This document shows, in pieces, positions 3 to 31,106 of a stretch of DNA of 41,635 nucleotides. The stretch lies in NCBI GenBank assembly GCA_004524595.1, contig SDOA01000021.1:1-41635 (forward strand), read 5' to 3'. The position numbers were made by a program, and so were the translations under genes. The DNA comes from Candidatus Thorarchaeota archaeon. GTDB taxonomy: Archaea; Asgardarchaeota; Thorarchaeia; Thorarchaeales; Thorarchaeaceae. The notes under the pieces are model-generated. The model worked only from the letters and a program-made list of their open reading frames with translations. It made no database searches and was not told the DNA's origin. The stretch's first letter is position 1; every line of letters begins with the position of its first letter.

Positions 3-3000
3 ACTATCGAGAGCGCGACATCAAGTCCAGCTGTAAACGGAGATTCCAACCTTCGAATTTATCATGAGAGTACTCTGGAATATTCTGATAGTGTGACGGT
101 ATCTACAGGTACATCTCATCATCAATGGGATATATCAGCTCATTCCTCAGCAAAAGGACTCCATCATATCGAACTCTATTGGGTAAATGGTTCAGAAGTA
201 GGATACTATACAGACGAGATTGTAGTCTATTATCCTACCACACTGACAGCAAAATCATACGATATAGATGGGTTCACAGAGAGCAGTGTCAAAATCAGTG
301 TATTCTTTGAAGACACCTATACGCCTATTGGACTAGATGGTGATAGTGCGACTGTTAAGTATTCATTTTCAGGAGAGAGCAACACAAGCCTGACGGATCA
401 TCATAATGGAACTTGGACAGCATCAATCCCGACTGTAGGAAGAGCTCCTAATACATATGATATAGAAGTGTTTGCAGAAGGGTATGCAATTGAAAACAAA
501 AGTCTGACTATATACACAACTCTAATTCATGATACAGAGTCACTTTCGATTCAATGGCTTGATAGTAATAACATTTCATTTGTAGACACTACAGAATTAC
601 ACATAGGGTACAATAGAGTTGGTTCCATACCGGTTGTAGATGCAACAGTAAATGTTACAATCGATGGAAAGGTCATACCACTATTATGGGATAGTGACCT
701 CAGTCTCTATAGATTAACCTTCAACGGGACTGATGGTTATTCTGGATTTAAGACATATAGTCTTGAAATAAATGCATGGAAATATGGCTACAAGGCACAG
801 GTGGATAATACCCAACAACTCACTATCCATCCTGAGTCAACAATTCTCAACATTGACTGGTCTCATGGAACTAATATAACATACCTAGAATATACGATAT
901 TAACTGTTTCATATCAGATGTCAAATACAACAGCTATCTATTTAGCTGATGTGAGTGTAACTGATAGCATCACAACATGGCCCCTAGAATGGAATGGGAC
1001 TGATGGCACATACTGGATCAAGTTCAATGGAACCGATAGTAATCCAGGATATGGAACACATAGCTTGACCATTCAATCATCGAAATTTGGTTATGAGAGT
1101 CAACAGAATATATCATACTCGCTAACAGTAAGAAGAGTACCAACATCTTTGGCACTTACTTGGACAAATGAAAACTCAATCACCTATTTAGAGTCCACTA
1201 CTCTGATTGTAAACTACACAATGATAAACGGACAGCCTGTAATAGATGCCATTGTTAATGTGACAGTTGGGACTCATTTCTATTCTCTGGACTATGATGA
1301 AGTTACCAAGACCTACAATCTCATGCTGAATGGAAGCGATATAAATCCAGGTCTGGGAACTCATTCTGTTCTCATTCTTGCTGATAAAATCGGATATGAT
1401 GATAAATCAAATGACGTGTGGTTATTTACGATAGATCTAGAACCAACGAAGATAATTGTCACATGGTCAAATGGGGATAATATTTCCTATGTTCAACAGA
1501 CAACACTCAATGTCACATATTTGACACTCAATGACATACCAGTTGCAGGAGCAATAGGAAATGTCACGATAAATGGGCACATATGGATTTTGACCTGGGA
1601 TGGCTCAAAATCGTATCTCTTAACATTCAATGGATTTGATTCATTACCGGGATTTGGTACTCATGACCTAATAATTCTAGTAGGAAAATACGGGTACACA
1701 AATCAGCAAGACAACGAGAGAGATCTCATCATACATCAAGAGACCACCTCTATTGATACTGGATGGGTCGATGGTATATCAGTCATCACTTATGCTGGTT
1801 CAACCACACTCTTCGTGAATTATACTATGTCTAGTGGGGCACCAGTCGAAGGAGCAATAGTATATGCTACAATAGGAACGACAACGTGGAATCTGACATG
1901 GGATGACATAAGCAAGACATATCGATGGATATTCTACGGGAATGATAATCCTCCGGATCTAGGGGTGCACACTATTACAATCAATGCAACACGATATGGT
2001 TTTATTACCAGATATGATAGTACCTCTCTAACTATTGATATCGCACCGACAACACTTCTCGTTGAATTTATACCAAGCAATGAGATCAATTATACACAGG
2101 GATGTGTTCTTTCTGTTAGCTATTTGATGAATTACAATAATAGCGCAATAACCGATGCAACTGTCTATGCAACTATTGCTGGAGTGCAAAGACAGATGGT
2201 TTGGAACATAAGTTTACAGACATTCTATTTATACATTGATGGTGATGTAGATCTACAAAGTCTTGGGACATACACGGTTTTTGTTGAAGCATCGAGGTAT
2301 GGCTTTATCTCCGGTTCAAATTCATCAAGGTCTATCGTACTACTAGCAGAAACAACATCGCTCATAGTAAGATGGTATAATGATGTCAGTAATCCTGATT
2401 TCTATAGTTATACTTACCTTATAGTTGAATACACCTATGGGAGCTCGATCCCAGTTCTTGATGCGACAGTAAATGTGACTATTGGAACTCATATTTGGAT
2501 ATTAAATTGGAACGAAACTCAAAGATATTATCAACTTAGATTCAATGGGTCAGACTCTATTCCTGGTGTCGGGGTACATTCACTCACAATTAAAGCATGG
2601 AAATATGGATTTGTTGGGAAGACAGGAGAGACAGAACTAATACTACCAGTCATCCCGACCAAGTTGAGTATTGTATGGACAAATGGAGATACAATTACTT
2701 ATGTGGAAACGACTACTCTTCAGGTATTCTATACCATGTACAATGATTCTCTGATCTATAATGCCATTGTTAATGTGACAATCAATGGGGTTACCTTGGA
2801 TCTTGACTGGAATAGCCTCACATACGCTTATGAAAGAACCTTTTACGGGTCTGATGGCTCATTAGACTTCACAACCTATCCAATTATGATTTTAGCATCA
2901 AAGACAGATTTCCAGAGCCAATCCAACTCAATTGAGTCGTTAACTAAGGAGTTAGAACCTACCAGTCTAATAATATCATGGAATGGTGGAGATAATATAA

Positions 3001-6000
3001 CCTATTTTAGTCAGACGACACTCTTAGTACAACTCATCACATCGAATGGAACACCAATATCAACGGGTATCCTCAACGCAACGATAAATGGAATAGTACT
3101 AAATCTAGAATGGACAGGCTCAGCATACGAAGTCCTCATTCTTGGTAGCGATAGTCGATTTGATTACTATACTTACAATGTCGTCATCAATGCCTCAGCC
3201 TTTGGATATTTTTCTGTAGTAGATACAACACAATCATTCACGATTAGGCTTGAGGATACTTACCTTACATTTGAGTGGGTGCCGGATGATACAATAACAT
3301 ATCTAGAGGTCACAATTCTAAGAATCTATTATCGATACGCAGCGAATCATTCACCAGTTCTTGCTGCAGAAGTAAATGCCACATGTATTGTTTTTTGGTC
3401 TGCAATCTTTAATGCAAGCACAGGTGCATATGAAATCTCATTTACTGGTTCAGACATTTTAAATCCATTTGATGGACCATATACTTTTGAGATATACGCA
3501 TCAAAAAGCAATCATCTCTCGTTCTATGATATTTCTCAAGTGCTCATAGTACTTCAAGAAGATACATTAATTGATACATATTGGCACAATGGTGATAATA
3601 CAATAACCTTCGTTGAAAGTGCGACCATCTTCATAAACTATTCACTTACAAAAACGGGTGAATCAATAGCAGATGCCTTTGTAACTATCAGGATAGGTGA
3701 AACCAATTGGCAGGCGTCCTATAATTATACTTCAGAATTATACTGGTTTACTTTCACAGGTGATATGGACCCACCAGGACTCGGAACTTTTTCATTGTAT
3801 ATTTCAGCAACATACGTTGCTCATCAAGGATTCAAAGATGCATCCGATAACACCAAAACCTTGACAATCAAATCAGAATCTGTAAATATAGAGAGCTATT
3901 GGATTGGCGGTAGTAAAATCACTTATGTTGGTTCTACAATTCTTGTAGTAAACTATACTATGTCTGATGGTTCTGCTATTCCAGAAGCATTTGTAAACGT
4001 AACAATTGGAACAGATCATTGGGTTCTTACTTGGCATGCATCTAGTGAAACCTATCGCATGGAATTCTATGGATCAACACCATCACCCGGTCTGGGATAC
4101 CATGAACTCGAGATCCGCGCTAGTAAAGATGGATTCGATTCACTCACTGACACGTCATTGAGTCTCGAGATTGTCCAAGAGCCGACAACAATCACTCCGA
4201 GATGGAGTGAACCATATGAGAATAGTATAACCTATTTTGAGTATACCTATCTTTTCGTAGATTATTCAACAAGTAGTGGTGCACCAATACAGGATGCATT
4301 AGTGAATGTCACAATTAATCTGACTACATGGACTTTGACGTGGAATAACACAGAAGGGGCTTATGAAATCAGATTCAATGGATCAGATATACCTCCAGGA
4401 TTTGGTATTCACAATTTGGTAGTTAAGGGGTCAAAATTTGGATTCACCTACGCGGAGAACACGAGTGCAACACTCATAATGGGCAGAGACCCAACATCAT
4501 TAGAGATTGATTGGTCAAATGGGAATAGCATTAGTTATATTGAATACACTACGCTTATGGTATACTATCGGATGAGTAATGGTTCATCAATAACAACGGG
4601 AGTTGTAGAAGCTTCCATTGGGGATGATACATGGCTTTTGGTATGGAACTCATCAGCTCAGGCATATTGTTATACATTCTATGGCACTATGGATCCACCT
4701 GGAATACATACATTTGCTTTGGAGATTATTGCATCAGGAGATATTTATGTCAGTCAAATAACACAAGTTCCATTTGAAATCCATGAGGAACCTACTACAG
4801 CTACACCATCATGGACAACAACAAGCATTGATTGGACTCAGTCTATTGTGCTATTTATTGAATACCGAGATAGTTATGGAAGGTTGATTGATGGTGTCAC
4901 TGTGAAGACAATCACTATTGACGGAGTAGCATTTACTCTTAGTGGTTCAGATGGAATATACTCATTTGAATTCAACAGTTCTTTTGATTTGGGACATCAT
5001 CTCATCACATTTAACATAAGCAAGTATGGATACGAGTTTACTTATGATTCAAGTTTAAGTCTAGATATCATTGAAGCTGCAACAGACCTTGTGTTATCAT
5101 GGAGTCCAACAACAGTAATTGACTATCTTGAGGAAATTCAACTTCTAGCTAACTACTCATATGCTGGAAATGGGCAAATTGTTCCACAAAGTGGTGTGGT
5201 AGCAAATATTACGATAGATGGAACTATAACTCTTCAACTTGTGGCATCGGGAGACTTTTGGACAATCAGTTTAAAGGGCTCTTATCTAGACCTTGGTTCA
5301 CATACAGTAGTGATTCAAGCTCAGGCATATGGTTATACTTTTTCACAGTCAATTGAAGTTCTCACAATCAATGAAGTCGCTACAGATGAGCTTCTAGTTA
5401 GTTGGAATCCAGCTAATGTTACTATCGAATTTACTGAATCGATTGAGCTAATTGTAGAGTATACATACTATGGCGGAGATGTCCCATATAATGCCACGAT
5501 TGATGTGACTCTAAATAGTCAGGTCTACTATCTTACTCATTCCTCTGGAGCATGGAGAGTCACGATAAACGGAGATGATTTGGGTGTAGGAGTATATGAT
5601 GCTTATATCACTGCCTGGCTTTATGGATATTCACTTAGAACAAATACAACCTTGGGAGTGAATGTGACACCAGCAGCAAACTGGTTCCATATCATGTGGC
5701 AACCTTCGAATCTTATCTGTACGTATATTGATGTCATCAATATTTCAGTGATTTACACACAAGACTTTGAACCAATTGTGAATGCTTCGGTATACCTGTT
5801 TTTGGATGGCATACCATATCAACTTGTTTATAGTCCTCTTGATGAGATGTGGCATTATAGTATCAGAGCATCGGCAATTGGACTAGGATCCTGGAATGTT
5901 ACCGTAACTGCAAATAAATCAGGATACGCAGATGGATGGTATTCCGAGTATCTGATCATTCAAAATGCAGACACAACTCTGGATACGTTGTTGTCTTCCC

Positions 6001-7502
6001 CCGTATTCTACTACGATGAGAGTTCTGAACTTGATATTTATTATCTTATGAATAATCTTAGCTATGTACCTAATAGCGAGCTTATCCTTACTCTTGATGG
6101 TTATACGCAAATAGCATCATGGGATACAGATCATTGGGCAATTACCATCAATGGAACTGAACTTAGTATTGGAGAACATAATCTCACAATCATCGTATCA
6201 GCCTATGGTTTTGAATCGCAAACTAAAAGCATTCTCGTTACAGTCCTTTTGATTCCAACTGAGATTACTTACACTGAGGTCATCATAGTTCGTGCCTTAG
6301 ATGTTTTTATGCTCAGATTCACTTTCTTGGACACAAGAACGAGTACTGGTATAATAGGAGCCACAACCAGTATAGATTGGATTGCTGCCTCTAATGTCTT
6401 TGATCTGGAAAATGGAACGTATCTAATTCAAATAGGTGGAAGTTATCTCCATATTGGTAACTACACTTTTGATATAACATTTGAAATGGTAGGGCACACT
6501 TCAGGAAATGGACTTGTAAGCATCGAGGCTATCCCTATACCTACAGAATTGAGAGTAAGTCCAATTATCACCCAGTACGAGAATGAAACAATAGTCATCG
6601 AAGCTAGATTCATTGAAATTATATCACACACGACAATTCTTGGAGCTGATATTATTGCCTCCATAGAAGGAGTAGAGTATGTCTTAATTTTCAATTCTGA
6701 TACTGGGAATTATTCGATTACAATTCAATTACCACGTAACATGAACCCTGATTTATATTCAATATCAGTTTTTGCTGTTGCTAGGGACTATGAAACCATA
6801 CAAACACAGATTGAGTTGAATATACTAGCAAAATCAACATATACTATAATCCTTGAAGTAGTGCAAAGCATTCTAGCCGGTGAGGAACTAGTAATCACTG
6901 TTACAGTTAATGATGATGGTCTTTCACCAGGTTCTGTGTCACTTACATTATTCATTACAATATCATCATCAACCGGACCCACGATTTATTCTCAAGAGAT
7001 AACAACGAATGCGGATGGTATTGCAATAGTTCGATTTAAAGTGCCACAGGATGCAACTAATTTAGATATCATTGCAAGATATTCTGGCTCAATCTCTACT
7101 TGGCCTACAGAGTCAAGTACAATCAATATTGAAGTCACATCCAGAGGGTTCAATTTCCTAAACACGCTTCTAGAAGATCCAGTAATGCTATCGATATTAG
7201 TTGGAGGCGTTTCAATACCTCTTCTAGGCATTATAACAGTAAGACGTAGGAGAAGTATCCCTACTAAAGTGATAGAACCACTAGTTGCGCCTGTTAGTGA
7301 GATATCACCTCCAAATGCGATTGACAGACTAAAAGCAGAACTTTTGTCAAGTGATTCAGGATTGACAAGGGCAGAACTTTCTCAGAGATTAAACCTATCA
7401 TCAACAAAAGTTAGTGACTTAGTGAAGGACTTGCTTTCATCAAATTCGGAAGTCTATGAGGTACGTGAAGGCTCTAAACGAATTATCAAGAGGAGAGAGT
7501 GA
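3..7502 (+). CDS. Giant single-pass surface protein with about 22 Ig-like repeats and a C-terminal winged-helix-like domain (5' partial)
   Basis: The frame is open to the window edge, so the gene begins upstream; a GTG at 93 is internal, because sequence before it continues the same module found in the neighbouring paralogue. About 2,499 residues are visible. Roughly 22 repeats of about 90 residues follow each other, each with an early W, an 'NITY'-like motif, 'VNVTI', 'W', 'FNGSD' and 'KYGY/F' near its end. N-x-S/T sequons recur in register, which fits heavy N-glycosylation outside the cell. A hydrophobic segment at about residues 2392-2412 (SILVGGVSIPLLGIITV) is followed by RRRR, giving a cytosolic tail of about 85 residues. 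Its last 60 residues (motif LTRAELSQRLNLSSTKVSDLV) read as a winged helix-turn-helix. Adhesion or S-layer-like architecture is inferred; the ligand is unknown. The ectodomain is homologous to that of the next gene. Confidence 0.85.
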   Translation, partial: TIESATSSPAVNGDSNLRIYHESTLEYSDSVTVSTGTSHHQWDISAHSSAKGLHHIELYWVNGSEVGYYTDEIVVYYPTTLTAKSYDIDGFTESSVKISVFFEDTYTPIGLDGDSATVKYSFSGESNTSLTDHHNGTWTASIPTVGRAPNTYDIEVFAEGYAIENKSLTIYTTLIHDTESLSIQWLDSNNISFVDTTELHIGYNRVGSIPVVDATVNVTIDGKVIPLLWDSDLSLYRLTFNGTDGYSGFKTYSLEINAWKYGYKAQVDNTQQLTIHPESTILNIDWSHGTNITYLEYTILTVSYQMSNTTAIYLADVSVTDSITTWPLEWNGTDGTYWIKFNGTDSNPGYGTHSLTIQSSKFGYESQQNISYSLTVRRVPTSLALTWTNENSITYLESTTLIVNYTMINGQPVIDAIVNVTVGTHFYSLDYDEVTKTYNLMLNGSDINPGLGTHSVLILADKIGYDDKSNDVWLFTIDLEPTKIIVTWSNGDNISYVQQTTLNVTYLTLNDIPVAGAIGNVTINGHIWILTWDGSKSYLLTFNGFDSLPGFGTHDLIILVGKYGYTNQQDNERDLIIHQETTSIDTGWVDGISVITYAGSTTLFVNYTMSSGAPVEGAIVYATIGTTTWNLTWDDISKTYRWIFYGNDNPPDLGVHTITINATRYGFITRYDSTSLTIDIAPTTLLVEFIPSNEINYTQGCVLSVSYLMNYNNSAITDATVYATIAGVQRQMVWNISLQTFYLYIDGDVDLQSLGTYTVFVEASRYGFISGSNSSRSIVLLAETTSLIVRWYNDVSNPDFYSYTYLIVEYTYGSSIPVLDATVNVTIGTHIWILNWNETQRYYQLRFNGSDSIPGVGVHSLTIKAWKYGFVGKTGETELILPVIPTKLSIVWTNGDTITYVETTTLQVFYTMYNDSLIYNAIVNVTINGVTLDLDWNSLTYAYERTFYGSDGSLDFTTYPIMILASKTDFQSQSNSIESLTKELEPTSLIISWNGGDNITYFSQTTLLVQLITSNGTPISTGILNATINGIVLNLEWTGSAYEVLILGSDSRFDYYTYNVVINASAFGYFSVVDTTQSFTIRLEDTYLTFEWVPDDTITYLEVTILRIYYRYAANHSPVLAAEVNATCIVFWSAIFNASTGAYEISFTGSDILNPFDGPYTFEIYASKSNHLSFYDISQVLIVLQEDTLIDTYWHNGDNTITFVESATIFINYSLTKTGESIADAFVTIRIGETNWQASYNYTSELYWFTFTGDMDPPGLGTFSLYISATYVAHQGFKDASDNTKTLTIKSESVNIESYWIGGSKITYVGSTILVVNYTMSDGSAIPEAFVNVTIGTDHWVLTWHASSETYRMEFYGSTPSPGLGYHELEIRASKDGFDSLTDTSLSLEIVQEPTTITPRWSEPYENSITYFEYTYLFVDYSTSSGAPIQDALVNVTINLTTWTLTWNNTEGAYEIRFNGSDIPPGFGIHNLVVKGSKFGFTYAENTSATLIMGRDPTSLEIDWSNGNSISYIEYTTLMVYYRMSNGSSITTGVVEASIGDDTWLLVWNSSAQAYCYTFYGTMDPPGIHTFALEIIASGDIYVSQITQVPFEIHEEPTTATPSWTTTSIDWTQSIVLFIEYRDSYGRLIDGVTVKTITIDGVAFTLSGSDGIYSFEFNSSFDLGHHLITFNISKYGYEFTYDSSLSLDIIEAATDLVLSWSPTTVIDYLEEIQLLANYSYAGNGQIVPQSGVVANITIDGTITLQLVASGDFWTISLKGSYLDLGSHTVVIQAQAYGYTFSQSIEVLTINEVATDELLVSWNPANVTIEFTESIELIVEYTYYGGDVPYNATIDVTLNSQVYYLTHSSGAWRVTINGDDLGVGVYDAYITAWLYGYSLRTNTTLGVNVTPAANWFHIMWQPSNLICTYIDVINISVIYTQDFEPIVNASVYLFLDGIPYQLVYSPLDEMWHYSIRASAIGLGSWNVTVTANKSGYADGWYSEYLIIQNADTTLDTLLSSPVFYYDESSELDIYYLMNNLSYVPNSELILTLDGYTQIASWDTDHWAITINGTELSIGEHNLTIIVSAYGFESQTKSILVTVLLIPTEITYTEVIIVRALDVFMLRFTFLDTRTSTGIIGATTSIDWIAASNVFDLENGTYLIQIGGSYLHIGNYTFDITFEMVGHTSGNGLVSIEAIPIPTELRVSPIITQYENETIVIEARFIEIISHTTILGADIIASIEGVEYVLIFNSDTGNYSITIQLPRNMNPDLYSISVFAVARDYETIQTQIELNILAKSTYTIILEVVQSILAGEELVITVTVNDDGLSPGSVSLTLFITISSSTGPTIYSQEITTNADGIAIVRFKVPQDATNLDIIARYSGSISTWPTESSTINIEVTSRGFNFLNTLLEDPVMLSILVGGVSIPLLGIITVRRRRSIPTKVIEPLVAPVSEISPPNAIDRLKAELLSSDSGLTRAELSQRLNLSSTKVSDLVKDLLSSNSEVYEVREGSKRIIKRRE

Positions 7503-7765
7503 GAAATAAGGTATCATATTCATGATTTATAGTGGAAGAAGATATTGAACCGAAAATGAAGGGAACACCCGCAGTTAATTGATATGGTTATGTTTTCTCT
7601 GTTATGTACTTACCAAGAACTTGTGAGCATATCTTGAAAACGTTGAAAAGTGTGAAATGTGCAGCAAACAGGAAACGTAAGAGAAAGGTGCAGATAGTTC
7701 AGTATCTGAATTGATGCATCATGCACTTGCAAGAAGATACCTCAATTTTCTATCGAGGGAAAAAC
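7503..7765 (+). promoter_or_regulatory. Intergenic leader between the two giant genes, with small palindromes
   Basis: This is the longest non-coding stretch in the window. A TATA-like TTTATAG lies at 7526-7532, which would give a leader of about 200 nt for the next gene. Near the 3' end are a 6-bp hairpin (CAGATA 7691-7696 with TATCTG 7703-7708) and a perfect 10-bp palindrome TGATGCATCA at 7712-7721. GAGGGA at 7755-7760 serves as ribosome-binding site for the ATG at 7766. No convincing short gene, tRNA or terminator T-tract was seen. The promoter position is an inference. Confidence 0.4.
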
Positions 7766-10700
7766 ATGAGAAGAACAACCATAACAATCATCTTGATGCT
7801 TTCACTCGTTTTTACAGCTACAATTACAGTCTATGCTCCAGAAGGTGTTTTATCAGCATTCAATGAAAATTCGAAGTATTTACAAGATATGAATCTACAA
7901 GCGGAAATCCGGATGAAAGGTGATAATATCCCTGTAATTCAATTTATGCACAGGTCAGTACCAGATCAGCTCATTTCAATCTCGAACACATTTGGTAGCA
8001 CAACTACTCATGTCTCATCGATAGATTTGTCATCATATCAAATACCAGGTTGGACATTATATGAAGTGATAATAGTCCAGGATAATATTACAGCCATTAT
8101 TGAGAAGGAAGTCATTGGTGTAAATGCAGAATCACCATCAGATCTGTTTGCAATCTATGAACATGAATCTGGTCTTTACTACGACCAGCTGGCCCAAGGT
8201 TTTTATAATCAGATTCATGATGGACAATTGCAAAATCTTTCAATTCTGTACCAAACTCCAACGTATGACCCAGGATTTCATAATTATGCTTATCTCGATA
8301 TAAGATCAAACTACCAAGATGGTACAAGCAATATGGTTTCATCAGTACCACTGGCTTATGTTGGTTATACTGGAACATGGGCAAATGTAACAGAGAATGT
8401 CATTCTGGATGGTGGTGTTACTTACTATGCTGTGATAAATGGAACTAAGCTTAATCAGGTTCCTGGGGATTATCCAAAAATTCGCTGGTATTATCAAGAC
8501 TTATCTGGAACATTCCTTACTAGACGTCATAACACAGATGGGGACACATGGGGCTCTGATAGACCTTATGAGGCTTTATTGAATTATTCATACATACCAT
8601 GGAATACAACAACTAATTCAGCTCTTGTTTATACTGATCCTACAACAATTAATCTAAATCTCAACGGAACTCCGATGGGTGGAATTTCGTGGTCAGTGAG
8701 TTCAGCCTCGTCAATCGAACAGATCGAGATTAACACAAATCAATCAGTTGATGTATATTATAATCTTACACTTAGCTATAAAAAAGATGTAACAGCAATT
8801 ACGCATTGGTTTGCAGAGTCCCTGAGTTCATCTATTATATGGAATGTCACTGTTAATCTTACATACCCAGTAGTCCCCGAGACCGTAACGCATTTCATGA
8901 ATATAACAGGAATCCCAGGTGATTGGACAACAACTGGGCTCTACTTGGGAAATACTCCTGCTGGATCGCAGACAAAGATTGGTACAACAGTATATTGTAC
9001 TGGATTGAGCGATGGTACGTGGACACTGACATCAAGTGCTCCGAATTATGTTACGGATATTGTACTGTCAGATTCTTCAGATAGCTCACCCATTGGAGAT
9101 TTAGTAAGTCTACTTGTTATCATGGATATAGACGCAACAGTTGAAGATGAGATAGGTACTCCAATATCTGGAGGATTAGCAAATCTCACTATTACTCATG
9201 GAGGAGCTACAATTTATGCACCTTTAGAGATTGCCGCAAGTTCAGGTCTTGTAAGTTTCTCATGGAATATCAGCTCCACCACATCAGGTAATGGAACACA
9301 TCTCATCGAGATATATTGGATAAATGGATTAGAAGCAGGTTACTATACTACTCAAGTGTTTGTGTATTATCCAACAACACTTGTTGCAGATGAATATAGT
9401 ATATCAGCCTTTACAGACAATTCATTTGATATCGGAGTCGATTTCAATCAGATATATCCCGTCAGAGGTTTGGATGATACTCTCGTGGATGTCACGTATT
9501 CATTTGGTAGCATAGTTAATGCAACGCTCCTAAATCCAAGTGGAGGAAGGTGGGAACAGACAATTGATACAACAGGAATGAGTAGTGGAACCTACCCTCT
9601 AATCATTTATGCAGAAGGGTATACAATTGAGAATCAAAGCCTTACAATATCTGTGGAATTAATTATTGAAACACTTCCACTGAATTGGAGTTGGTCGCAA
9701 GGTAACAACATTACCTATCTTGATAGTACCAATCTAACTGTATCATATTGGGATATCAACAGTGTAAGCATCCCAGATGCAATGGTAAATGTCACATTCG
9801 ATGGTCACACTTATGCCCTGCAATGGGACCCGATAGCTGAAGTATACTGGATTCAGCTAAATGGAACTGATTTCTTAGTAGTTCCAGGAACAACACTTCT
9901 TAATGTCAGTGCTTGGAAGATTGGATATGCTCCGCAATATAACGATTCAATAGAAATTTCGATTTCTCCTGAGACGGGCGTTGTATTCAATGTGGACTGG
10001 AATCCTGCAGATAGGAATATTACGTATATTGAATCGATTGCTATAACTGTCACATACACCTACAACTCTGTTCCTATAGATGGAGCTTGGGTAAGAGCTA
10101 CATTTAGTGGTCATCCGCTAGTGAACTTCACATACAATTCTGGATTAGGCGTATGGGAACTCATACTTGATGGTAGCGATTATTTTGGAATCACAACCAT
10201 CACAGTCCGAGCAAGCGCTACAGGTTACAGTCTTGTCCAAGAGACCCAGACATTAACAGTCATAGAAGACATTCCAACAGTTTCTGGTTCATGGATAGAA
10301 GATGCTGCGTCAACAGATTATGTCACAAATATCCCACTCTTAATTACAATAAGGGATTCAAGTGGTACTTTCATCAATGATGCGACTGTAACAGTCTATG
10401 TATTCAGTACAAACTTTTCAATGGTATTTGTTGGGGATGGAGTTTATTCGATTACGATTGACCCAATAGAAATACAAGGAATCCACCAAGTGAATGTCAC
10501 AATGGAACGCACTGGTTTCAAGACCAGTTCAATTCTCTTAGAGCTCACTATTTCAGCAACAACAGATATTGAAGTTGATTTTCAACAGTCAGAATATGAA
10601 CAGTGGAACCTGACTATTACAGTCACATATACTGACTCATTCTACGATACACCAGTTGAAGATGCAACAGTCACAATAACACTTGATGGTGTTGTGTATA

Positions 10701-12262
10701 CACTCGACTATTCAGAGGGAGTCTATGTCATTGAGATTGTTCTCGATGTTGATCCTGGAGTATACACAATCAGTGTCAATGCAAATAGCCTCTTCTGCAA
10801 CGAAGCCAGCACTTCTTCATCTCTTACTGTGCTTCCAAAGGCTGGAGTCTATTTATCACTAGCAACTGAAGGAGACCCAAGTGTTCAGGGACAATTGCTA
10901 TCAATCATTGCCACACTTCAATATAATGACACTGACCTTCCAGTGACAAACGTCAACATCTACTTCATTGTAACGATATACTACACCAATGGAACAATAG
11001 AGTTACGGAACAGTCCGACCCAATATGATACAACAAATGATGCAGGTGTTGCAAGCTGGGGATTCCAGATTCCAGCAGGTACCATTGATAGAATCGAGGT
11101 TTTGGCTGAGTTTCGGGGTAGTAGAGATAAATGGACAGCCAGTCTTTCACAAGTTGTAGCCGTAGCATCAAATCCAATTCTTCTTGTAATATCCTTCCTA
11201 TTCTTCACAAATATTGGAAGATTGATAGTCATCTCAATTGCTATACTTGCAGTCGTCGCGGCAGGATACAACAAAAGTGTAAAGCCTAAAAAACGAGCGT
11301 TTAGAACTTCCTTAGAAAACCAGCTTGAGATGTTCAAAGATCTTGAATCTCTTCGGCACTTCATGGCAATATATCTTGATAGAGGAACATGTGTATTCTA
11401 TCATCCATTTACTGATGAGAGAATTCAACCAGATCTGATTAGTGGATTTATCGCTGCCATCACGAGTGTCTATGGGGAGATAAAGGGTGATGGTGTGAGA
11501 GGAACACTTGAAGAGATACAATATCACGGACTGCGTTTGAATAGCTATAGTGGGGAGTTCATTATTGGTATTCTCATCCTAGAAGGTGAGATGACGCCAT
11601 TATTGCGGGAGAGATTGCAGTTCTTTATAGAACTCTTCGAAAATCAATACGACCAAGATCTCACCGGATGGTCAGGTCTGATTGATTGCTTTGATCCTGA
11701 ATGGGTAGTATCAACCCTCAATTCTACCTTTAATTACTCTTGGTTGCTACCGCATAGATTTGGGCCAACACAGAAAGTCAACAAGACAAATGCGAGAATC
11801 CTTGACTATATTGGAGCAGTCCGAGACGAGAGGGGAGAATTCTATCTAAAGGACCTCATCAAACCGCTTGCTGAGATGTTTGAGAAGTCTGAGGCGGAGA
11901 TACTCGATAAACTATTGCAGCTTCAAGAGAGGGGCATGATTGCACCTGTAAGTATCCAGACTATCCTGCAGAGACAAGGAATGGGATTAGCAGACAGCGA
12001 TTCAGAAGGAATAACAATTCCACTCCCACCTGAAATAATGAAAGAAATAGATAAGACTCCAGAAGAAGAACCTGCTGAAGAAGAGATTATTGAAGAAGAA
12101 GAGCAGCAAGAACCTGAGGACCAAGAAACTTCTGAAGAACCTGCAGAACCTGTTATCGAGAAAGAACCATCTAAGCCTCCGAAAAAGATGGTAGATCCAT
12201 TAGAAGAATTCGTTAGAGATGTTGAAGACTTATTGACCAAAGAGAAGGAAAAGGAAGAATAG
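7766..12262 (+). CDS. Giant surface protein: signal peptide, lectin-like and Ig-like ectodomain, TM helix, cytosolic longin-like domain, acidic tail
   Basis: The start at 7766 is chosen over an in-frame ATG at 7721, because GAGGGA sits 5 nt upstream and it places a signal peptide (MRRTTITIILMLSLVFTATI) at the N-terminus. Residues about 120-280 resemble a jelly-roll module. About seven beta-sandwich repeats follow, homologous to the upstream gene, with many N-x-S/T sequons. A hydrophobic stretch at about 1136-1168 is followed by KSVKPKKR, so the tail is cytosolic. Residues about 1194-1322 show an alternating beta/alpha pattern (IYLDRGTCVFYHPF, LISGFIAAI, GEFIIGILIL) like the longin-like proteins abundant in Asgard archaea. 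Next come a helical, winged-helix-like stretch at about 1340-1398 and an E-rich disordered tail. The longin assignment is by pattern only. The protein may couple surface contact to GTPase or trafficking-like machinery. Confidence 0.8.
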   Translation: MRRTTITIILMLSLVFTATITVYAPEGVLSAFNENSKYLQDMNLQAEIRMKGDNIPVIQFMHRSVPDQLISISNTFGSTTTHVSSIDLSSYQIPGWTLYEVIIVQDNITAIIEKEVIGVNAESPSDLFAIYEHESGLYYDQLAQGFYNQIHDGQLQNLSILYQTPTYDPGFHNYAYLDIRSNYQDGTSNMVSSVPLAYVGYTGTWANVTENVILDGGVTYYAVINGTKLNQVPGDYPKIRWYYQDLSGTFLTRRHNTDGDTWGSDRPYEALLNYSYIPWNTTTNSALVYTDPTTINLNLNGTPMGGISWSVSSASSIEQIEINTNQSVDVYYNLTLSYKKDVTAITHWFAESLSSSIIWNVTVNLTYPVVPETVTHFMNITGIPGDWTTTGLYLGNTPAGSQTKIGTTVYCTGLSDGTWTLTSSAPNYVTDIVLSDSSDSSPIGDLVSLLVIMDIDATVEDEIGTPISGGLANLTITHGGATIYAPLEIAASSGLVSFSWNISSTTSGNGTHLIEIYWINGLEAGYYTTQVFVYYPTTLVADEYSISAFTDNSFDIGVDFNQIYPVRGLDDTLVDVTYSFGSIVNATLLNPSGGRWEQTIDTTGMSSGTYPLIIYAEGYTIENQSLTISVELIIETLPLNWSWSQGNNITYLDSTNLTVSYWDINSVSIPDAMVNVTFDGHTYALQWDPIAEVYWIQLNGTDFLVVPGTTLLNVSAWKIGYAPQYNDSIEISISPETGVVFNVDWNPADRNITYIESIAITVTYTYNSVPIDGAWVRATFSGHPLVNFTYNSGLGVWELILDGSDYFGITTITVRASATGYSLVQETQTLTVIEDIPTVSGSWIEDAASTDYVTNIPLLITIRDSSGTFINDATVTVYVFSTNFSMVFVGDGVYSITIDPIEIQGIHQVNVTMERTGFKTSSILLELTISATTDIEVDFQQSEYEQWNLTITVTYTDSFYDTPVEDATVTITLDGVVYTLDYSEGVYVIEIVLDVDPGVYTISVNANSLFCNEASTSSSLTVLPKAGVYLSLATEGDPSVQGQLLSIIATLQYNDTDLPVTNVNIYFIVTIYYTNGTIELRNSPTQYDTTNDAGVASWGFQIPAGTIDRIEVLAEFRGSRDKWTASLSQVVAVASNPILLVISFLFFTNIGRLIVISIAILAVVAAGYNKSVKPKKRAFRTSLENQLEMFKDLESLRHFMAIYLDRGTCVFYHPFTDERIQPDLISGFIAAITSVYGEIKGDGVRGTLEEIQYHGLRLNSYSGEFIIGILILEGEMTPLLRERLQFFIELFENQYDQDLTGWSGLIDCFDPEWVVSTLNSTFNYSWLLPHRFGPTQKVNKTNARILDYIGAVRDERGEFYLKDLIKPLAEMFEKSEAEILDKLLQLQERGMIAPVSIQTILQRQGMGLADSDSEGITIPLPPEIMKEIDKTPEEEPAEEEIIEEEEQQEPEDQETSEEPAEPVIEKEPSKPPKKMVDPLEEFVRDVEDLLTKEKEKEE

Positions 12263-12336: not shown

Positions 12337-12642
12337 ATGCCATGGGACATTGAAAACTATTCAATTATCGATGGAAGGATTCTCAAAGTGGATATTACTC
12401 TACCACTAATTGAATTCATCTATATTACTATTGATGATGTTAAAGAGGCGTGGCTTGATATGCTGCAACAGTTCGTAACAGAACAACCAGGTTTTGATGT
12501 TTCATGGGAGATGCAACCACGTGATGATCTAGCCTTGGTGACGATTCAAATTGCCAAAGCAGGCAAATTGGGTGATTTTACTCATGAAGAGGCAAGAGGA
12601 GCAATAGATGCTGTTGATGCTCTGTTTGATGGCAAAAAATAG
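12337..12642 (+). CDS. Small hypothetical protein (101 aa)
   Basis: I do not recognise this family. It is a soluble, acidic protein with a predicted alternating beta/alpha pattern (ILKVDITLPLIEFIYITIDD, then amphipathic helices) and no membrane segment or cysteine. The ATG at 12337 is preceded by GTGAGG about 8 nt upstream, a reasonable ribosome site. It lies 74 bp after the giant longin-like gene on the same strand and ends 6 bp before the convergent LarA-like gene, so it could be the last member of the surface-protein transcript or have its own promoter. A beta-strand followed by 'TIDDVKEAW' resembles small regulatory alpha/beta proteins, but no function should be assigned. Confidence 0.75.
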   Translation: MPWDIENYSIIDGRILKVDITLPLIEFIYITIDDVKEAWLDMLQQFVTEQPGFDVSWEMQPRDDLALVTIQIAKAGKLGDFTHEEARGAIDAVDALFDGKK

Positions 12643-12648
12643 TCTGCA

Positions 12649-13923
12649 TCAAGTCTTCAATATGGGGATTGTTCTCATACCTAGAGGTATTATAGCAATT
12701 CGTGGAAGAGTAACTATCAGACTACGTGCAAGTTCTAAGCCTTCCTGCGGATCTCTCACAGCATGACAATGAAGATGCTCAGAGACCACAGACGCCCTAA
12801 GTCTGCTACAGATTATAATTGTCCATGATTTCATTACATTCCAAAAAAGTCGAGCTTTTGCCATTCCAATATCAAATCCAGTCTCAGATAGAATTGCTAC
12901 TTCAGACTCTGATGTACACTCTGAGAGACCTCGCATAAATCCAGCTGGTCCAACACCTTCAGGACATTCAGCGACTAAGATAATCACGCCGCCTTGTTCA
13001 GTAGCTTGAGCGGCAGAATAGAGAGAGTCAATTGCATCATACAGGGTTCTATCATGATGAGGACTCCCTGCACTGATGAAGGTAATATCTGCTTTTGTTT
13101 TAATTGTGGTTTCTGTCACGCTCCGTACGGTAGCAATACTTTCTCTCCATGATATGTACGGTTCACCGGCAGTGATCTGTGCAACATGATTACAGCAATC
13201 AGGGACTGCATTTACAATGTAATCTAGTCCCGCTAATCTTGAGGCTTCTTCAAGATCAATACATGTTGCAGTCTCATGCATAAAAGGTCCGACGGGATGA
13301 GTTGCTCTAAGTTTTACATTTCGTTCGATACTTCTAATTCCTGCTGCCCAAGGAAGTACAGACATTCGACCACCTGTTGCACCAACAAATACATCAGCAC
13401 GAATCTCACCCACACCTATCTTTAGCTCAGCCTCTGAATACGCTTTATTTACATAAACAGGCGTACAATGGGTTGGAGTATCACCGACAAAATGCAGAGT
13501 GTCGGACGCCTTAGGATCATGAGCAATAAGGGGATGTCCAAGGTCAACTAGAGACCCTAACAAATCAATAAGCTTAGGTCGTTGCTTCGGAGCGGATGTA
13601 GGTTCTTGGCAAAGAATAGCAATATTTTCAGGTCGAAGCATTTGCGTCTTGAGAGAATCTAACACAGCGGCAAGGAGAGTAGCTGTAATATCATTATCCA
13701 TCTCACCATTTATCACAATTGTAGCAGATTGAACTTGTTTTGCAAGTTTAGAGAGGGGTATAGTGGTTTCTTCTTTTTCAAGAGAAGCAAGTACCAGATC
13801 TATATCAGAAATATCCACAATTACTTGAGGTTGAATGGTTTCTACCTTAAGTCGGTTATTGATTTCCAAGGGAAGTGAACCATCACCATATTGCAGATTG
13901 AACCTCATATAGAATTGACCCAT
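12649..13923 (-). CDS. LarA-superfamily (DUF2088) protein lacking the nickel-pincer residues
   Basis: The protein is full length for the LarA family (424 aa) and the fold signature is clear: VYVNKAYSEAELKIGVGEI, GATGGRMSVLPWAAGIRSIERN, then LEEASRLAGLDYIVNAV. LarA enzymes racemise 2-hydroxyacids with a nickel-pincer nucleotide bound covalently by a Lys and ligated by His. Aligned by eye, every one of these positions differs. The usual EPH His is D177, the Lys of GGRK is M187, the His of ERNH is V203, the SDxTRP segment reads NDITAT (residues 77-82), and the THRP His is absent. No larB, larC or larE lies nearby. It is therefore probably not a classical lactate racemase. Its 3' end is 6 bp from a convergent gene and its 5' end faces the VTT pair. 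Confidence 0.8.
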   Translation of the reverse strand: MGQFYMRFNLQYGDGSLPLEINNRLKVETIQPQVIVDISDIDLVLASLEKEETTIPLSKLAKQVQSATIVINGEMDNDITATLLAAVLDSLKTQMLRPENIAILCQEPTSAPKQRPKLIDLLGSLVDLGHPLIAHDPKASDTLHFVGDTPTHCTPVYVNKAYSEAELKIGVGEIRADVFVGATGGRMSVLPWAAGIRSIERNVKLRATHPVGPFMHETATCIDLEEASRLAGLDYIVNAVPDCCNHVAQITAGEPYISWRESIATVRSVTETTIKTKADITFISAGSPHHDRTLYDAIDSLYSAAQATEQGGVIILVAECPEGVGPAGFMRGLSECTSESEVAILSETGFDIGMAKARLFWNVMKSWTIIICSRLRASVVSEHLHCHAVRDPQEGLELARSLIVTLPRIAIIPLGMRTIPILKT

Positions 13924-14008: not shown

Positions 14009-14761
14009 ATGTATGAGATGAAACGCGCAGATAGACTACTTCTTTTATCGATCTTTCTCTTGTTAGTCTATTTTCTTTTATCCGTCATTGTTAGTAATCT
14101 GTCAAGTCCAATTGTGCTCGTCTATAATTGGCTACTGGATATCTCTCTCTTGATGGGATATTTCGGAAATCTCATCATTGCTATAATAGGGAACTCGACT
14201 ATTCTCATTCCAATTCCATATATGGGAGTGACATTCATCCTTGGTGGTCTACAAGATGAGGTGAGTGGACAATTTCTGTTTAATCCATGGTTGGTTGGTA
14301 TTATATCAGGATTTGGTGCCATGCTAGGAGAAATGGTGACCTACATGATTGGTTATGGTAGTGGCCAATTCATTCAGGAAAAACAGAGAAACTCCTTTCG
14401 AGAATATGTGGCAACACATCCAAAGGCTACTCCACTAGTCCTATGGTTTCTTGCGGTCACTCCAATTCCAGATGATGTCCTGATTCTTCCTTTAGGAGCT
14501 GTGAAATATCCTTGGTGGAAGATTGCCATTGTTCAACTGATTGGAAAATCTATGTTTATGATAGGAGTAGCATGGGCTGGTAGGTATGGTCTCGAGTTTA
14601 TCGGTTCACTTATTGGAAATACAGATCCTTCTTCCATAGTTTCAAGGAGTATTGAAGTGTTTACATTATTGTTGATTATAATCGCAGTCTACATCTTTGT
14701 TAAGATAGATTGGGAAAGACTAATGGCAAAGACAAGTATTCAAGAGGTTAAAGAAAATTGA
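14009..14761 (+). CDS. VTT/DedA-family (SNARE-associated) membrane protein, copy 1
   Basis: This is a polytopic membrane protein of 250 aa. It has an N-terminal TM helix (LLLLSIFLLLVYFLLSVIV), the re-entrant and helical core of the VTT/DedA fold, and a last TM helix near the C-terminus (TLLLIIIAVYIFV). Diagnostic elements are the proline-rich re-entrant segment (IPIPYMGVTFILGG), GFGAMLGEMVTYMIGYGSG, and the second re-entrant FLAVTPIPDDVLILPLGA. VTT proteins act in lipid scrambling or undecaprenyl/polyprenyl-phosphate flipping in other organisms; the substrate here is unknown. The next gene is a clear paralogue whose start overlaps this stop by 4 bp, so the two are translationally coupled and may form a heteromer. 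An alternative start is the ATG at 14018. Confidence 0.85.
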   Translation: MYEMKRADRLLLLSIFLLLVYFLLSVIVSNLSSPIVLVYNWLLDISLLMGYFGNLIIAIIGNSTILIPIPYMGVTFILGGLQDEVSGQFLFNPWLVGIISGFGAMLGEMVTYMIGYGSGQFIQEKQRNSFREYVATHPKATPLVLWFLAVTPIPDDVLILPLGAVKYPWWKIAIVQLIGKSMFMIGVAWAGRYGLEFIGSLIGNTDPSSIVSRSIEVFTLLLIIIAVYIFVKIDWERLMAKTSIQEVKEN

Positions 14762-15495
14762 AACTTGCAGACAAAGGATTTGCTGTTTCAATCAGTATTA
14801 TCCTCATTTACTGGATTATACTAGTCACTAGTCCGATAATCACGAGTCCCCTAAGTCAATTCTTTGAGTGGATGGCTGAAATAGCCATAATTCTTGGGTA
14901 TTGGGGCACATTCTTAGCGTGCTTGTTGGGAAGTGCAAGTGTTATCGTTGAAGTTCCGTTTGCAGGGATTCCTTTCGTACTTGGTGGTCTCAGAGACAGC
15001 CTAACTGGACCTTTCTTATTCAATCCTTGGATAATTGGTATCATATCAGGTATAGGTGCAACAATAGGGGACATGACAAGTTATGCATTGGGATACTTTG
15101 GGAGAAGATTTGCTGATGAGGCCAATTCTTCAGGATTCAGTAGATTCATTGATCATCACCCAAGAGCAACTCCTTTGGCAGTCTTTATTCTTGCCTCTAC
15201 TCCAATGCCACTTGACCCAGCTGTTGTCGCACTTGGAATTGCAAGATATCAATGGTGGAAGCTCTTTGTACCCTGTCTTGTGGGTGAGATAATTTTCTTG
15301 ACTGGAGTTGCATGGGCAGGAAGACTTAGTCTTGATTGGATTATTGCACTGTTAGGGGTGGGTAGTCCTGTAACACCACTCTCAGCAGCTGTTGAGGTTT
15401 TTGGGATCTTTCTATTGATTCTTGCTGTCTATCTGACCGTCAGGATTGATTGGATAGCTCTTACTAAGAGATTCAAAGAAGCAAACCATGAGTAG
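14758..15495 (+). CDS. VTT/DedA-family membrane protein, copy 2
   Basis: This 245-aa polytopic protein is paralogous to the preceding gene. Shared blocks include FLFNPWIIGIISGIGATIGD and YQWWKLFVP, against FLFNPWLVGIISGFGAMLGE and YPWWKIAIV in copy 1. The start is a TTG at 14758 in the sequence TTGA, overlapping the upstream stop by 4 bp; an AGAGGT site about 10 nt upstream supports it. The second re-entrant loop reads STPMPLDPAVVALG, where copy 1 has VTPIPDDVLILPLG, so both keep the acidic residue typical of this loop. A lipid flippase or scramblase role is inferred from the family. A tandem, coupled duplication points to an obligate pair. Confidence 0.85.
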   Translation: MKLADKGFAVSISIILIYWIILVTSPIITSPLSQFFEWMAEIAIILGYWGTFLACLLGSASVIVEVPFAGIPFVLGGLRDSLTGPFLFNPWIIGIISGIGATIGDMTSYALGYFGRRFADEANSSGFSRFIDHHPRATPLAVFILASTPMPLDPAVVALGIARYQWWKLFVPCLVGEIIFLTGVAWAGRLSLDWIIALLGVGSPVTPLSAAVEVFGIFLLILAVYLTVRIDWIALTKRFKEANHE

Positions 15496-29236: not shown

Positions 29237-30655
29237 CTAGGTCGTTGCTTTAGGAAGCCATATACGAAACTTTACACCTTTATTAGGTTCTCCTTCAACC
29301 CGATCAAGAATCTCAAATGCACCACCATATTTGCTTGTGATCTGTTGACATTGTAGAATGCCCACTCCACCAGAGCGACGCTCAGGGTTGAGAAGATTCT
29401 TTTTCATATCATCCTTTATACCGGGTCCATTATCAGCGATCGTAATTTCGTAACCATCGCCACTCTCAGTCAACCGGGTCCATATTTTCTTTTCATTTTT
29501 GTTGTTGTGTTTCACCGCATTAGAGAAGAGATTCATCAACAAATGGCAGAGAAATCGATCAGCATTTACTAAAGCATCTGACACCTCCAGGTCGCTGTCA
29601 AAATTAACCTCTCTATGTTCTTCATTGAATATGGTCATGCAGCTCTTTACTGTAAAGTCTAGTGATGTTCGCTCAAGTGGAGTAGATAAGAGAGCTGCTG
29701 TTGCTTGAACACTATTAATCAATTCGCTTGTTTCCTGCACTGCCTCTGAAACATGATGTATTAACGATGACCTTGTCAAGTCTTTTTCATCCTCAGCAAG
29801 AAGGTCTGCGGCAATCAAAATTGCTTGGAGAAGATTGCGAATATCGTGTCCAGTAATGTCTTGGTAGAGCATAGCAACAGAATGAGCCTGCCGAGCCTCT
29901 TCTTCTGCCTGTTTTAAATCAGACACATCTCGGATTACCAACACTGCTCTGATTCTATCTTCATGTGGGCTTAATTTCCCAGAATACCAACGACCACCCA
30001 TAGGATATTCAAATGTAGTTGTCATTTTTTCCTTCATTGTCACACGAACAAGTTCAGCGATTTTGTTGGCTATATTCATCGAGAATAAATCACGAACATG
30101 TAATCCCACATGTTCACTCAATTCAACATCATCTGAAACAGGCGACTGTGAATAGAACTCGGAAACAATGCCTTCAGAAGTCAATACTATTACAGTGTCA
30201 GAGAGCGATTGTACTAATAGACGATGTTTCCGCTCACTCTCTCGTAGGCTTTCTTCAGCAACTCGTCTTCTATGTCTTTGTTCTGCCTCACCAATCTCTC
30301 GTTTTAAAGCAGGGACTAGTCGACTGAGATTATTTTTTGTGAGATAATCATGAGCTCCAGCTTTCATCATATCAACAGCGGTTTCATCAGAAATTGTTCC
30401 TGAGACAATGATGAAGGGTATGTCCAAATTTCTCTTTCTAATGATGTCCAGAGCTTCATTTGCACTAAGTTCAGGCATCATATAATCGCAAAGAACAGCA
30501 TCCCAATGGTGATTATCAAGAGATTCAATCATCTCAGAAGCTGTGCACACTTGTTCAATTTCAAAGTCGATTCCGTCTCTTTTGATGACCCGTTGTAAAA
30601 GTAGTGCATCATCATCTGAATCCTCAATGAGAAGAATCCTGAGTTTTGTGCTCAA
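29237..30655 (-). CDS. Receiver-PAS-histidine kinase hybrid
   Basis: The 472-aa protein begins with a receiver domain (IEDSDDDALLLQRVI; phospho-acceptor Asp in LCDYMMPEL). A coiled coil leads to a PAS domain (about 140-255, MGGRWYSGKLSPHEDRIRAVL) and a kinase core with the H-box DITGHDIRNLLQAILIAADL, N-box NLFSNAVKHNN, G1 ADNGPGIKDD and a shortened G2 RSGGVGILQC. It therefore can receive a phosphoryl group and pass one on, or be controlled by the receiver. A TTG start overlaps the upstream stop (TTGA) behind a strong GGAGGGGGT site, so it is translationally coupled to the single receiver. No TM segment is present. Confidence 0.93.
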   Translation of the reverse strand: MSTKLRILLIEDSDDDALLLQRVIKRDGIDFEIEQVCTASEMIESLDNHHWDAVLCDYMMPELSANEALDIIRKRNLDIPFIIVSGTISDETAVDMMKAGAHDYLTKNNLSRLVPALKREIGEAEQRHRRRVAEESLRESERKHRLLVQSLSDTVIVLTSEGIVSEFYSQSPVSDDVELSEHVGLHVRDLFSMNIANKIAELVRVTMKEKMTTTFEYPMGGRWYSGKLSPHEDRIRAVLVIRDVSDLKQAEEEARQAHSVAMLYQDITGHDIRNLLQAILIAADLLAEDEKDLTRSSLIHHVSEAVQETSELINSVQATAALLSTPLERTSLDFTVKSCMTIFNEEHREVNFDSDLEVSDALVNADRFLCHLLMNLFSNAVKHNNKNEKKIWTRLTESGDGYEITIADNGPGIKDDMKKNLLNPERRSGGVGILQCQQITSKYGGAFEILDRVEGEPNKGVKFRIWLPKATT

Positions 30656-31101
30656 TCTATACCCCCTCCTGGTGGACTAACATTGATGACTAACCAATAG
30701 AGACCGAGTGTACGAATTGCTTGAACAAATTGATCAAAATCCACAGGTTTCTGAATGTAGGAATTCGCACCATGATTATAGCTCTCACAGATATCTTGAT
30801 CTTCTTTTGAGGATGTCAATACAACAACAGGGAGGAGTTTCAGATGTTTTATTGAACGGATTCTTTCTAATAACTCTAGGCCTCCCATTCTTGGCATTTT
30901 CAAATCAAGTAATACCACTACAGGTAAATCAGACACATCGCGTCCTGCATACTGTCCCTGAGCGGTTAGATACTCAAGGGCTTCTTGTCCGTTACGAGTA
31001 ACAATCACTTCATTGAGGATATTTGATCTTTGAAGGGCTCTCAATGTGAGAAGAACATCATCGGTGTTATCTTCGACCAATAGTATCTTTTTGCTACTCA
31101 T
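30652..31101 (-). CDS. Single-domain response regulator (Rcp1-like)
   Basis: The 149-aa protein is a lone receiver with no output domain. Acidic pocket residues are in LLVEDNTDD, the phospho-acceptor Asp is in LLDLKMPRMGG, the Thr/Ser in VVVLTSSKED and the Lys in SYIQKPVDF. The insert DLPVVVLLDL and the overall length match Rcp1-type regulators that partner with phytochrome-like kinases. The ATG at 31101 is chosen (GGTGA 10 nt upstream), although a GTG at 31110 overlaps the kinase stop. It links two kinases in one operon, a likely phosphorelay intermediate. Confidence 0.93.
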   Translation of the reverse strand: MSSKKILLVEDNTDDVLLTLRALQRSNILNEVIVTRNGQEALEYLTAQGQYAGRDVSDLPVVVLLDLKMPRMGGLELLERIRSIKHLKLLPVVVLTSSKEDQDICESYNHGANSYIQKPVDFDQFVQAIRTLGLYWLVINVSPPGGGID

Positions 31102-31106
31102 TCTCG

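Follow-up and report, generated by a model that had tools for sequence, protein, structure and literature searches.

Tandem giant surface proteins of a Thorarchaeota archaeon with matching, exchanged outer parts and different cytosolic ends

The first 41 635 nt of contig SDOA01000021.1 (Candidatus Thorarchaeota archaeon, assembly GCA_004524595.1), hereafter the window, open with two tandem genes for giant surface proteins, here called P1 and P2. The two have homologous repeat ectodomains and differ inside the cell, where P1 ends in a winged helix and P2 in a longin domain followed by a winged-helix-like domain (together, the cytosolic module). Among relatives the outer parts are mosaic, and the distal N-terminal part of P1 is of the same type as that of its neighbour P2. 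The P2-type cytosolic module is also present on giant surface proteins well outside Thorarchaeia. Our preferred reading, held tentatively and at somewhat less than even confidence, is that these giants are Asgard contact or ligand receptors with a constant inside and an exchanged distal cap, P1 being a tandem transcriptional copy.

Architecture of P1 and P2

P1 (3..7502, forward strand) is an open reading frame (ORF) of 2499 amino acids (aa) in the window, its 5' end cut off and no stop codon present upstream. Complete P1 orthologues are 2978–3476 aa long, and residue 1 aligns with residue 478 of orthologue P0114, so that about 477 aa lie outside the window. P2 (7721..12262, forward strand) is an ORF of 1513 aa; a start at 7766, used in its database copy P0001, gives 1498 aa. 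A signal-peptide-like stretch is found at P2 residues 21–39.

P2 residues 473–997 align with P1 residues 1–532 at 33% identity (E 2e-63), and there are weaker register-shifted matches. The YYPTTL...AEGY module common to both lies at 9362..9631 (forward strand) in P2, judged from the P2–P1 alignment and the translations, in agreement with its earlier placement. The P1 ectodomain has 67 sequons, where 500 shuffles give 29.8 +/- 4.7, and that of P2 has 31, where shuffles give 15.0 +/- 3.4. Weak Pfam matches to MG4, MG2, CarboxypepD_reg and Big_1, all under their cut-offs, fit with beta-sandwich repeats. Each protein has one strong hydrophobic segment near its C-terminus. The earlier note, made from this DNA alone, had described two tandem ORFs with homologous, sequon-rich ectodomains and a single transmembrane helix each, and alignment, shuffling and hydropathy bear this out.

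The transmembrane helix of P1 (7182..7238, forward strand; residues 2394–2412; hydropathy peak 2.24) is followed directly by RRRR, and the cytosolic winged helix lies at 7314..7499 (forward strand), with an HTH_24 match at residues 2446–2479. The match scores 28.1 bits in the last 87 residues, above the gathering score of 21.9, and 21.2 bits, slightly under it, in the whole protein. HTH_24 is matched at E <= 0.1 in 11 of 14 P1 sequences, in which the cytosolic winged-helix segment is basic (mean pI 9.6); a search with the C-terminal region retrieved seven P1 homologues. P1 thus combines a transmembrane region predicted by hydropathy with a predicted DNA-binding domain (HTH_24 above the gathering score in fragments), the two features that define transmembrane transcription regulators. 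It looks like such a regulator and may bind promoters from the membrane. ArnR-type regulators are far smaller than P1.

In P2, the transmembrane segment (11177..11281, forward strand; about residues 1153–1187, by hydropathy) precedes the longin domain (11348..11740, forward strand; model residues 25–155), the winged-helix-like domain (11771..11953, forward strand; model residues approximately 166–226, by predicted helix/strand order) and an acidic C-terminal tail evident from the translation (12008..12259, forward strand). The C-terminal region has 113 database homologues. The cytosolic part is modelled by AlphaFold2 with a mean pLDDT of 82.9, and the longin fold, with its beta-beta-alpha-beta-beta-beta-alpha order, is also found by fold comparison with the Protein Data Bank (PDB) using Foldseek and VIA. 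At the level of sequence profiles, no Pfam longin family was matched by the window or by members of alignments A1 and A4, and PDB profile searches gave none. The winged-helix-like domain has a pLDDT of about 89–96 by blocks and weak HTH matches in family members; on its own it was unmatched in fold searches. NPRL2 and NPRL3 were neither among the Pfam matches nor among the best 50 matches of the Foldseek and VIA comparisons. The order ectodomain, transmembrane segment, longin, winged-helix-like domain is not that of longin SNAREs, in which a longin, a SNARE helix and a C-terminal transmembrane helix follow one another.

Both C-terminal regions are therefore real folded domains, not disordered tails, and a common external part with two different internal ends, as first proposed, stands. 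The winged-helix-like end claimed for P1 is upheld by HTH_24. The longin-like end claimed for P2 is right as to the fold and incomplete, since a winged-helix-like domain comes after it; the contrast is between a winged helix and a longin plus a winged-helix-like domain. We infer that P1 and P2 are receptors.

Derivation of the P1 winged helix from the winged-helix-like domain of P2 was considered and rejected, because profile similarity between the two is absent. An intermediate exists in the P1 of locus L017 (the P1_G005 gene), whose approximately 320 cytosolic residues include a part matching columns 75–225 of the cytosolic module (hhalign probability 75.7, E 2.4e-5; first longin strands unmatched), followed by a P1-type winged helix. 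Separately, stand-alone proteins of about 127–137 aa in many Thorarchaeia genomes (e.g. G002:C212:31378-31545) show a weak likeness (E 1e-5 to 1e-3) to the winged helix of P1, and are a possible source of the P1 domain.

The part of P2 that is exchanged among relatives is the distal N-terminal domain (7853..9055, forward strand; about residues 30–430 counted from 7766). No Pfam family was found for it in any of 14 members, nor any PDB sequence relative under E 0.3. A profile of the Thorarchaeia distal domain matches only five ORFs in loci from other Asgard archaea, so that the distal domains cannot, for the most part, be called homologous throughout the phylum.

Exchange of outer parts and matching of P1 with P2

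Window P2 and 15 Thorarchaeia relatives share on average 66.8% identity in the cytosolic module and 43.6% in the first 640 residues. Along individual pairs the change can be abrupt. P0054 and P0051 are 29–45% identical up to about residue 410 and mostly 79–100% beyond; the corresponding figures are 29–49% to about residue 610 and 69–94% beyond for P0006/P0011, and 33–45% to about residue 430 and 62–95% beyond for the window and P0002. The profile of the window with P0003, which is of the same type, is step-free before the module, and P0023/P0016 climb gradually from about 45% to 95–100%. The first 600 or so residues of P1_G201 and P1_P0116 are 30–54% identical and the remainder mostly 53–90%, so that the P1 N-terminus has moved independently of the P1 C-terminus. 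Among the Loki-type giants (see below), module identity reaches 90% or more in 152 pairs, of which 136 fall below 60% in residues 90–360, five between 60 and 79% and 11 at 80% or more. The protein database was clustered at 90%, leaving pairs alike in both parts under-represented in these counts. Repeat proteins can also misalign, lowering identity in the middle part.

Low N-terminal identity might also reflect relaxed constraint, through an ancient duplication and ordinary fast evolution with no exchange at all. Ectodomains outpace cytosolic parts in many surface proteins, and in most pairs saturation of synonymous sites hides the answer. Such an account fits poorly with borders as sharp as that of P0054/P0051 at about residue 410, or with the block-wise distribution of synonymous saturation. 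In 34 Loki-type pairs, drawn from 37 complete giants and having modules at least 78% identical, fourfold sites are unsaturated in the module in three (divergence, p4, of 0.18, 0.14 and 0.42), and all three have saturated blocks outside it; pairs saturated in the module are uninformative on exchange. The clearest pair is L051/L076: residues 1–100 are 82% identical in amino acids with a p4 of 0.21, residues 101–1120 are 32–62% identical with a p4 of 0.55–0.90, and the module is 93–98% identical with a p4 of 0.07–0.21. For P2 of Thorarchaeia, one of 136 pairs, L014/L016, is unsaturated in the module (p4 0.23, below 0.44), and its residues 30–430 have a p4 of 0.51 against 0.24 in the remaining ectodomain. 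Saturated blocks beside an unsaturated module indicate that the blocks were replaced by old alleles and did not merely change fast, and we regard fast evolution without exchange as highly improbable.

The mosaics could, in principle, be chimeras of metagenome assembly, given that the sequences are all metagenome-derived as far as record titles show and that giant repeats assemble badly. This is barely credible, however: ectodomains at 30–45% identity offer few exact words for misjoining, the pattern recurs in many separate contigs, and such giants also lie on contigs of 2.3–4.4 Mb (L050, L079 and L080).

In a tree of the first 650 or so residues, P1 appears in four places, each beside P2, and well-supported branches force four label changes (three in a smaller set). 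A tree of the membrane-proximal part sets P1 apart from P2, with one or two changes and 18 of 19 P2 in one supported clade; P1_G199, whose transmembrane position is misplaced, sits there on a long branch. N-terminal types are scattered over the P2 C-terminal tree, in which three P2 rows carry no type label (eight changes, against a shuffled mean of 7.6). P1 and P2 are of the same N-terminal type in all nine pairs. Own pairs average 47.6% N-terminal identity against 37.2% for all combinations, and only the observed one of 362 880 permutations reaches 47.6%; in the membrane-proximal part the mean is 22.3% for both. The link between P1 and P2 is closer than first claimed, because the N-terminal 500 or so aa of P1 resemble those of the P2 at their own locus more closely than those of other P2s in each of the nine pairs. 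Window P2 is of type a in the N-terminal tree. The first 100 residues of window P1 are 50–70% identical to five type-a P1s and 37–47% to other typed P1s; P1 is thus closest to type a, in agreement with its neighbour.

These figures should be read with caution: six pairs were each read from a single contig, and three are paired only since their listed longest contigs are equally long. The nine pairs moreover amount to about four lineage units and are not independent, for which a cautious figure is 1 in 24 orderings (approximately 0.04). Neutral linkage or gene conversion between tandem paralogues, rather than selection for matching, might also produce matched N-termini, with exchange between lineages being ordinary homologous recombination of a fast-evolving gene. 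P1 and P2 are adjacent and have sequence in common, which makes conversion easy, and part of the identity matrix is accounted for by recent common ancestry inside each N-terminal type. Within types a and b, however, P1 and P2 N-termini make up separate clades, which argues against recent conversion within each genome, and the N-terminus of P1_G201/P1_P0116 has moved independently of the C-terminus. Linkage or conversion is a serious possibility, although we doubt that it accounts for the matching.

Distribution and gene neighbourhood

P2 orthologues, defined by a score of at least 337 bits, are present in 34 of 227 Asgard genomes, and the best P2 homologues in the database bear the label Thorarchaeota or Promethearchaeota. 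Scanning the species contigs of GTDB yielded 30 loci, almost all in records under the name Thorarchaeota. P1-type giants were found in 11 of the 34 P2 genomes: adjoining P2 in eight, undecidable in two (G208 and G199) and not adjoining in G003, where another ORF precedes P2. The pair is accordingly not general among Asgard archaea, and its conservation as neighbours, a check named in the earlier note, is not supported in that wide form; in the nine genomes whose contigs settle the matter, P1 adjoins P2 in eight. In four loci without P1 (L014, L022, L026 and L030) a DUF2299-like gene lies upstream of P2, the domain having been tested in L014 only.

The conserved neighbour of P2, absent from the earlier note, is a 101-aa protein, S101 (12337..12642, forward strand; alignment A2). 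It is directly downstream of P2 in 27 of 28 loci with sufficient contig; L029 is without it, and L010 and L022 end early. S101 is present in 34 of the 227 genomes, 32 of which also have P2. The genomes with P2 and without S101 are G201, where the contig ends, and G189; those with S101 and without P2 are G204 and G214, each at a contig start. The two genes share a contig in 31 genomes and are adjacent in 30 of these (0.67 Mb apart in G188); in G195 they lie on separate contigs. This distribution indicates that P2–S101 is a stable unit and P1 a lineage-restricted neighbour. No signal-peptide-like stretch was noticed in S101. Charge pairing between an acidic P2 tail and a basic S101 tail was rejected: most loci have a net acidic S101, and comparable P2 tails, net negative in most loci, carry a net charge of 0 to +8 in L014, L015 and L016.

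A profile of the cytosolic module matches 213 of the 227 genomes at E <= 0.001. Soluble longin proteins are included, and the best match was therefore fetched from 54 genomes outside Thorarchaeia, hand-picked from among the matches listed and not random. In 50 of the 54 a hydrophobic helix lies no more than 75 residues before the module, and the part preceding it has a mean of 4.3 sequons per 100 residues over a median available length of 1110 aa. The four helix-less proteins (L056, L057, L112 and L113) have 0.4–0.6 sequons per 100, an internal control for the outside location of the giants' front part. In an alignment of 24 modules the window is 21–31% identical to members from outside Thorarchaeia. 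A Loki-type member has 166 database homologues; depositor labels among the 120 listed include Loki-, Hod-, Heimdall-, Hermod-, Odin- and Thorarchaeota and Promethearchaeota, and Lokiarchaeum GC14_75 is present. Thorarchaeia genomes also carry a second kind of longin giant (L035, L036 and L037); in L035 and L037 the transmembrane helix is under the hydropathy cut-off, with hydrophobic stretches visible before the module. In L038, two tandem soluble proteins (2883-3758, 291 aa, and 3761-4588, 275 aa), possibly soluble paralogues, match longin plus winged-helix-like domain and longin only, respectively. Two genomes outside Thorarchaeia have tandem second giants behind the longin giant (L062:6335-7999 and L055:6729-7346), with 63% and 41% identity across as much of the N-terminal part as is available, their cytosolic ends hidden by contig ends.

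Upstream of the Loki-type giants L050 and L051, two genes away, is a Ras-family GTPase with an N-terminal extension of about 180–200 aa. This neighbourhood lends weak support to a partnership between the longin module and small GTPases.

Downstream of the P2 locus in the window, a homologue of LarA-like nickel-dependent racemases (12649..13923, reverse strand; best NCBIfam matches far under cut-offs) converges on S101, and a LarA-like gene adjoins P2–S101 in most Thorarchaeia loci with enough sequence. Just past the locus are two tandem VTT-domain (DedA/TMEM41-like) membrane proteins (14009-14761 and 14758-15495); at least one VTT-domain gene, judged from sequence start, also follows in L003, L004, L009 and L030. 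Further along, an adjacent trio on the reverse strand (31107-34559, 30652-31110 and 29237-30655) resembles, from its translations, a large multi-PAS sensor histidine kinase with response regulators; the latter have no obvious DNA-binding domain in their translations, a family search not having been made. The ORF at 40647-41633 (forward strand, running off the edge) is presumably an exported protein, with a stretch that we take to resemble caspase/legumain-type proteases (TTNHGG).

Possible role and comparison with known systems

On our preferred reading, P2 would represent, in Thorarchaeia, a family of giant single-pass surface proteins found among Asgard archaea; these are probably glycosylated and may act as contact or ligand receptors or as receptor-like adhesins. 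The outside would be a beta-sandwich stack capped by a distal N-terminal domain, swapped between lineages by recombination, as expected when many partners, kin, viruses and neighbours need to be told apart. The constant inside, a longin and a winged-helix-like domain, would most likely be a platform on which cytosolic partners dock, small GTPases being the first candidates. In some Thorarchaeia, tandem gene duplication may have given P1, a basic HTH_24-type winged helix replacing the longin module. Contact or ligand binding at the distal tip could change the clustering or conformation of the giant, whereupon the longin/winged-helix module would recruit or regulate cytosolic partners; P1, where present, would link the same tip to a DNA-binding-type domain. 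The matched distal ectodomains suggest that both proteins probably see the same or paired partners, P2 giving a membrane-side and P1 a transcriptional response. Recognition of kin, partners or viruses would explain both exchange and matching.

Several points weigh against this. Architecture, distribution, mosaicism and matching are read from sequence or model; it is the receptor role at the surface, GTPase docking, DNA binding and the meaning of the matching that we infer. The winged-helix-like domain of P2 is based on a predicted model. The extended Ras-family GTPase is found in a minority (6 of 20) of further Loki-type upstream regions, whereas an ATP-grasp_5 gene, metabolic, nearer and more constant, lies within two genes on the giant's strand in 15 of 20; no GTPase gene was seen among the neighbours of the Thorarchaeia window looked at. 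A purely structural, cell-coat role would, furthermore, share several of these features. The giants might be coat or adhesion proteins that substitute for an S-layer, whose longin module does no more than attach them to a membrane scaffold and whose outer parts vary under attack by viruses and predators. Very long, sequon-rich beta-sandwich arrays on one transmembrane helix are consistent with this, as is the description of Lokiarchaea as lacking an ordered S-layer and having irregular surface proteins (available text of PMC9834061), and variability by itself is no proof of recognition. Yet the best conserved part is the cytosolic module and P1 keeps a DNA-binding-type domain, both needless for a mere anchor, and matched N-termini are unexpected of a plain coat. 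A coat role seems unlikely to us, if far from negligible.

A bolder extension, which we consider improbable, is self/non-self or kin recognition throughout the Asgard phylum, in which the giants would signal via longin and winged-helix-like domains to small GTPases and to membrane or cytoskeleton, and a type-matched second receptor in Thorarchaeia would report to the genome. If true, prokaryotes would have a system comparable to the Tgr locus of Dictyostelium, and one connected to a domain later used by eukaryotes in vesicle traffic.

Block-wise exchange of outer domains, together with P1–P2 matching, would be the first hint of polymorphic recognition in Asgard archaea in the open-access literature searched, in which no description of this surface-protein family was found.

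The longin domain of P2 has the fold of Asgard and eukaryotic trafficking longins (PMC10933270, PMC4917890, PMC9834061, PMC10936438). According to the available text of these sources, longins are numerous in Asgard genomes and in some cases fused to GTPases or to Vps28-C, TPR or Ig-like parts, and none is described there as ending a giant single-pass surface protein on its cytosolic side, the arrangement of P2. In the available portion of PMC10933270, Loki and Odin are named as having longins and Thor is not, and the words 'transmembrane' and 'winged' do not occur; small GTPases are a precedent there for longin/roadblock platforms. That of PMC9834061 has a group termed 'NPRL2-like longin domain' in Loki. 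Asgard longins are usually treated as soluble proto-trafficking parts; one family is here the constant cytosolic end of giant surface proteins. Surface longins would connect the cell surface directly with eukaryote-like trafficking/GTPase modules before eukaryotes, a connection open to testing.

Transmembrane transcription regulators (PMC10269533) and ArnR/ArnR1 of Sulfolobus (PMC6396743, as far as available) resemble P1 in joining a single-pass membrane protein to a cytosolic DNA-binding-type domain; P1 differs in its length of about 3000 aa and its repeat ectodomain. The words 'Asgard' and 'Thorarchaeota' are absent from the text of PMC10269533.

The VARTIG modules of Thermococcales (arCOG07710; PMC8416519) are likewise archaeal loci for a large surface protein with Ig domains; its distal domain is swapped through recombination between strains as well as species, and, in the available text, the authors describe comparable variability as without counterparts outside Thermococcales. 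There, by description, variation falls in the C-terminal Ig domain, in a protein that is at most anchored to the membrane or sorted. P2 lacks such a hypervariable C-terminal Ig domain; its N-terminal distal domain varies, and its constant C-terminus is a cytosolic longin/winged-helix module. TgrB1 and TgrC1 of Dictyostelium (PMC5288501, available text) are, like P1 and P2, a linked pair of membrane proteins that are polymorphic: their N-termini vary, their C-termini are nearly constant and their alleles match. The Tgr pair is eukaryotic, has a promoter in common and has had its matching proven by gene swaps, whereas P1 and P2 are tandem genes with statistical matching, one partner having a DNA-binding-type domain. 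Linked polymorphic single-pass proteins with variable N-termini of matching types are nevertheless what is found here, in nine of nine pairs or about four independent units. By this comparison VARTIG is the nearest archaeal precedent for the exchange, and Tgr the nearest candidate for a functional analogue.

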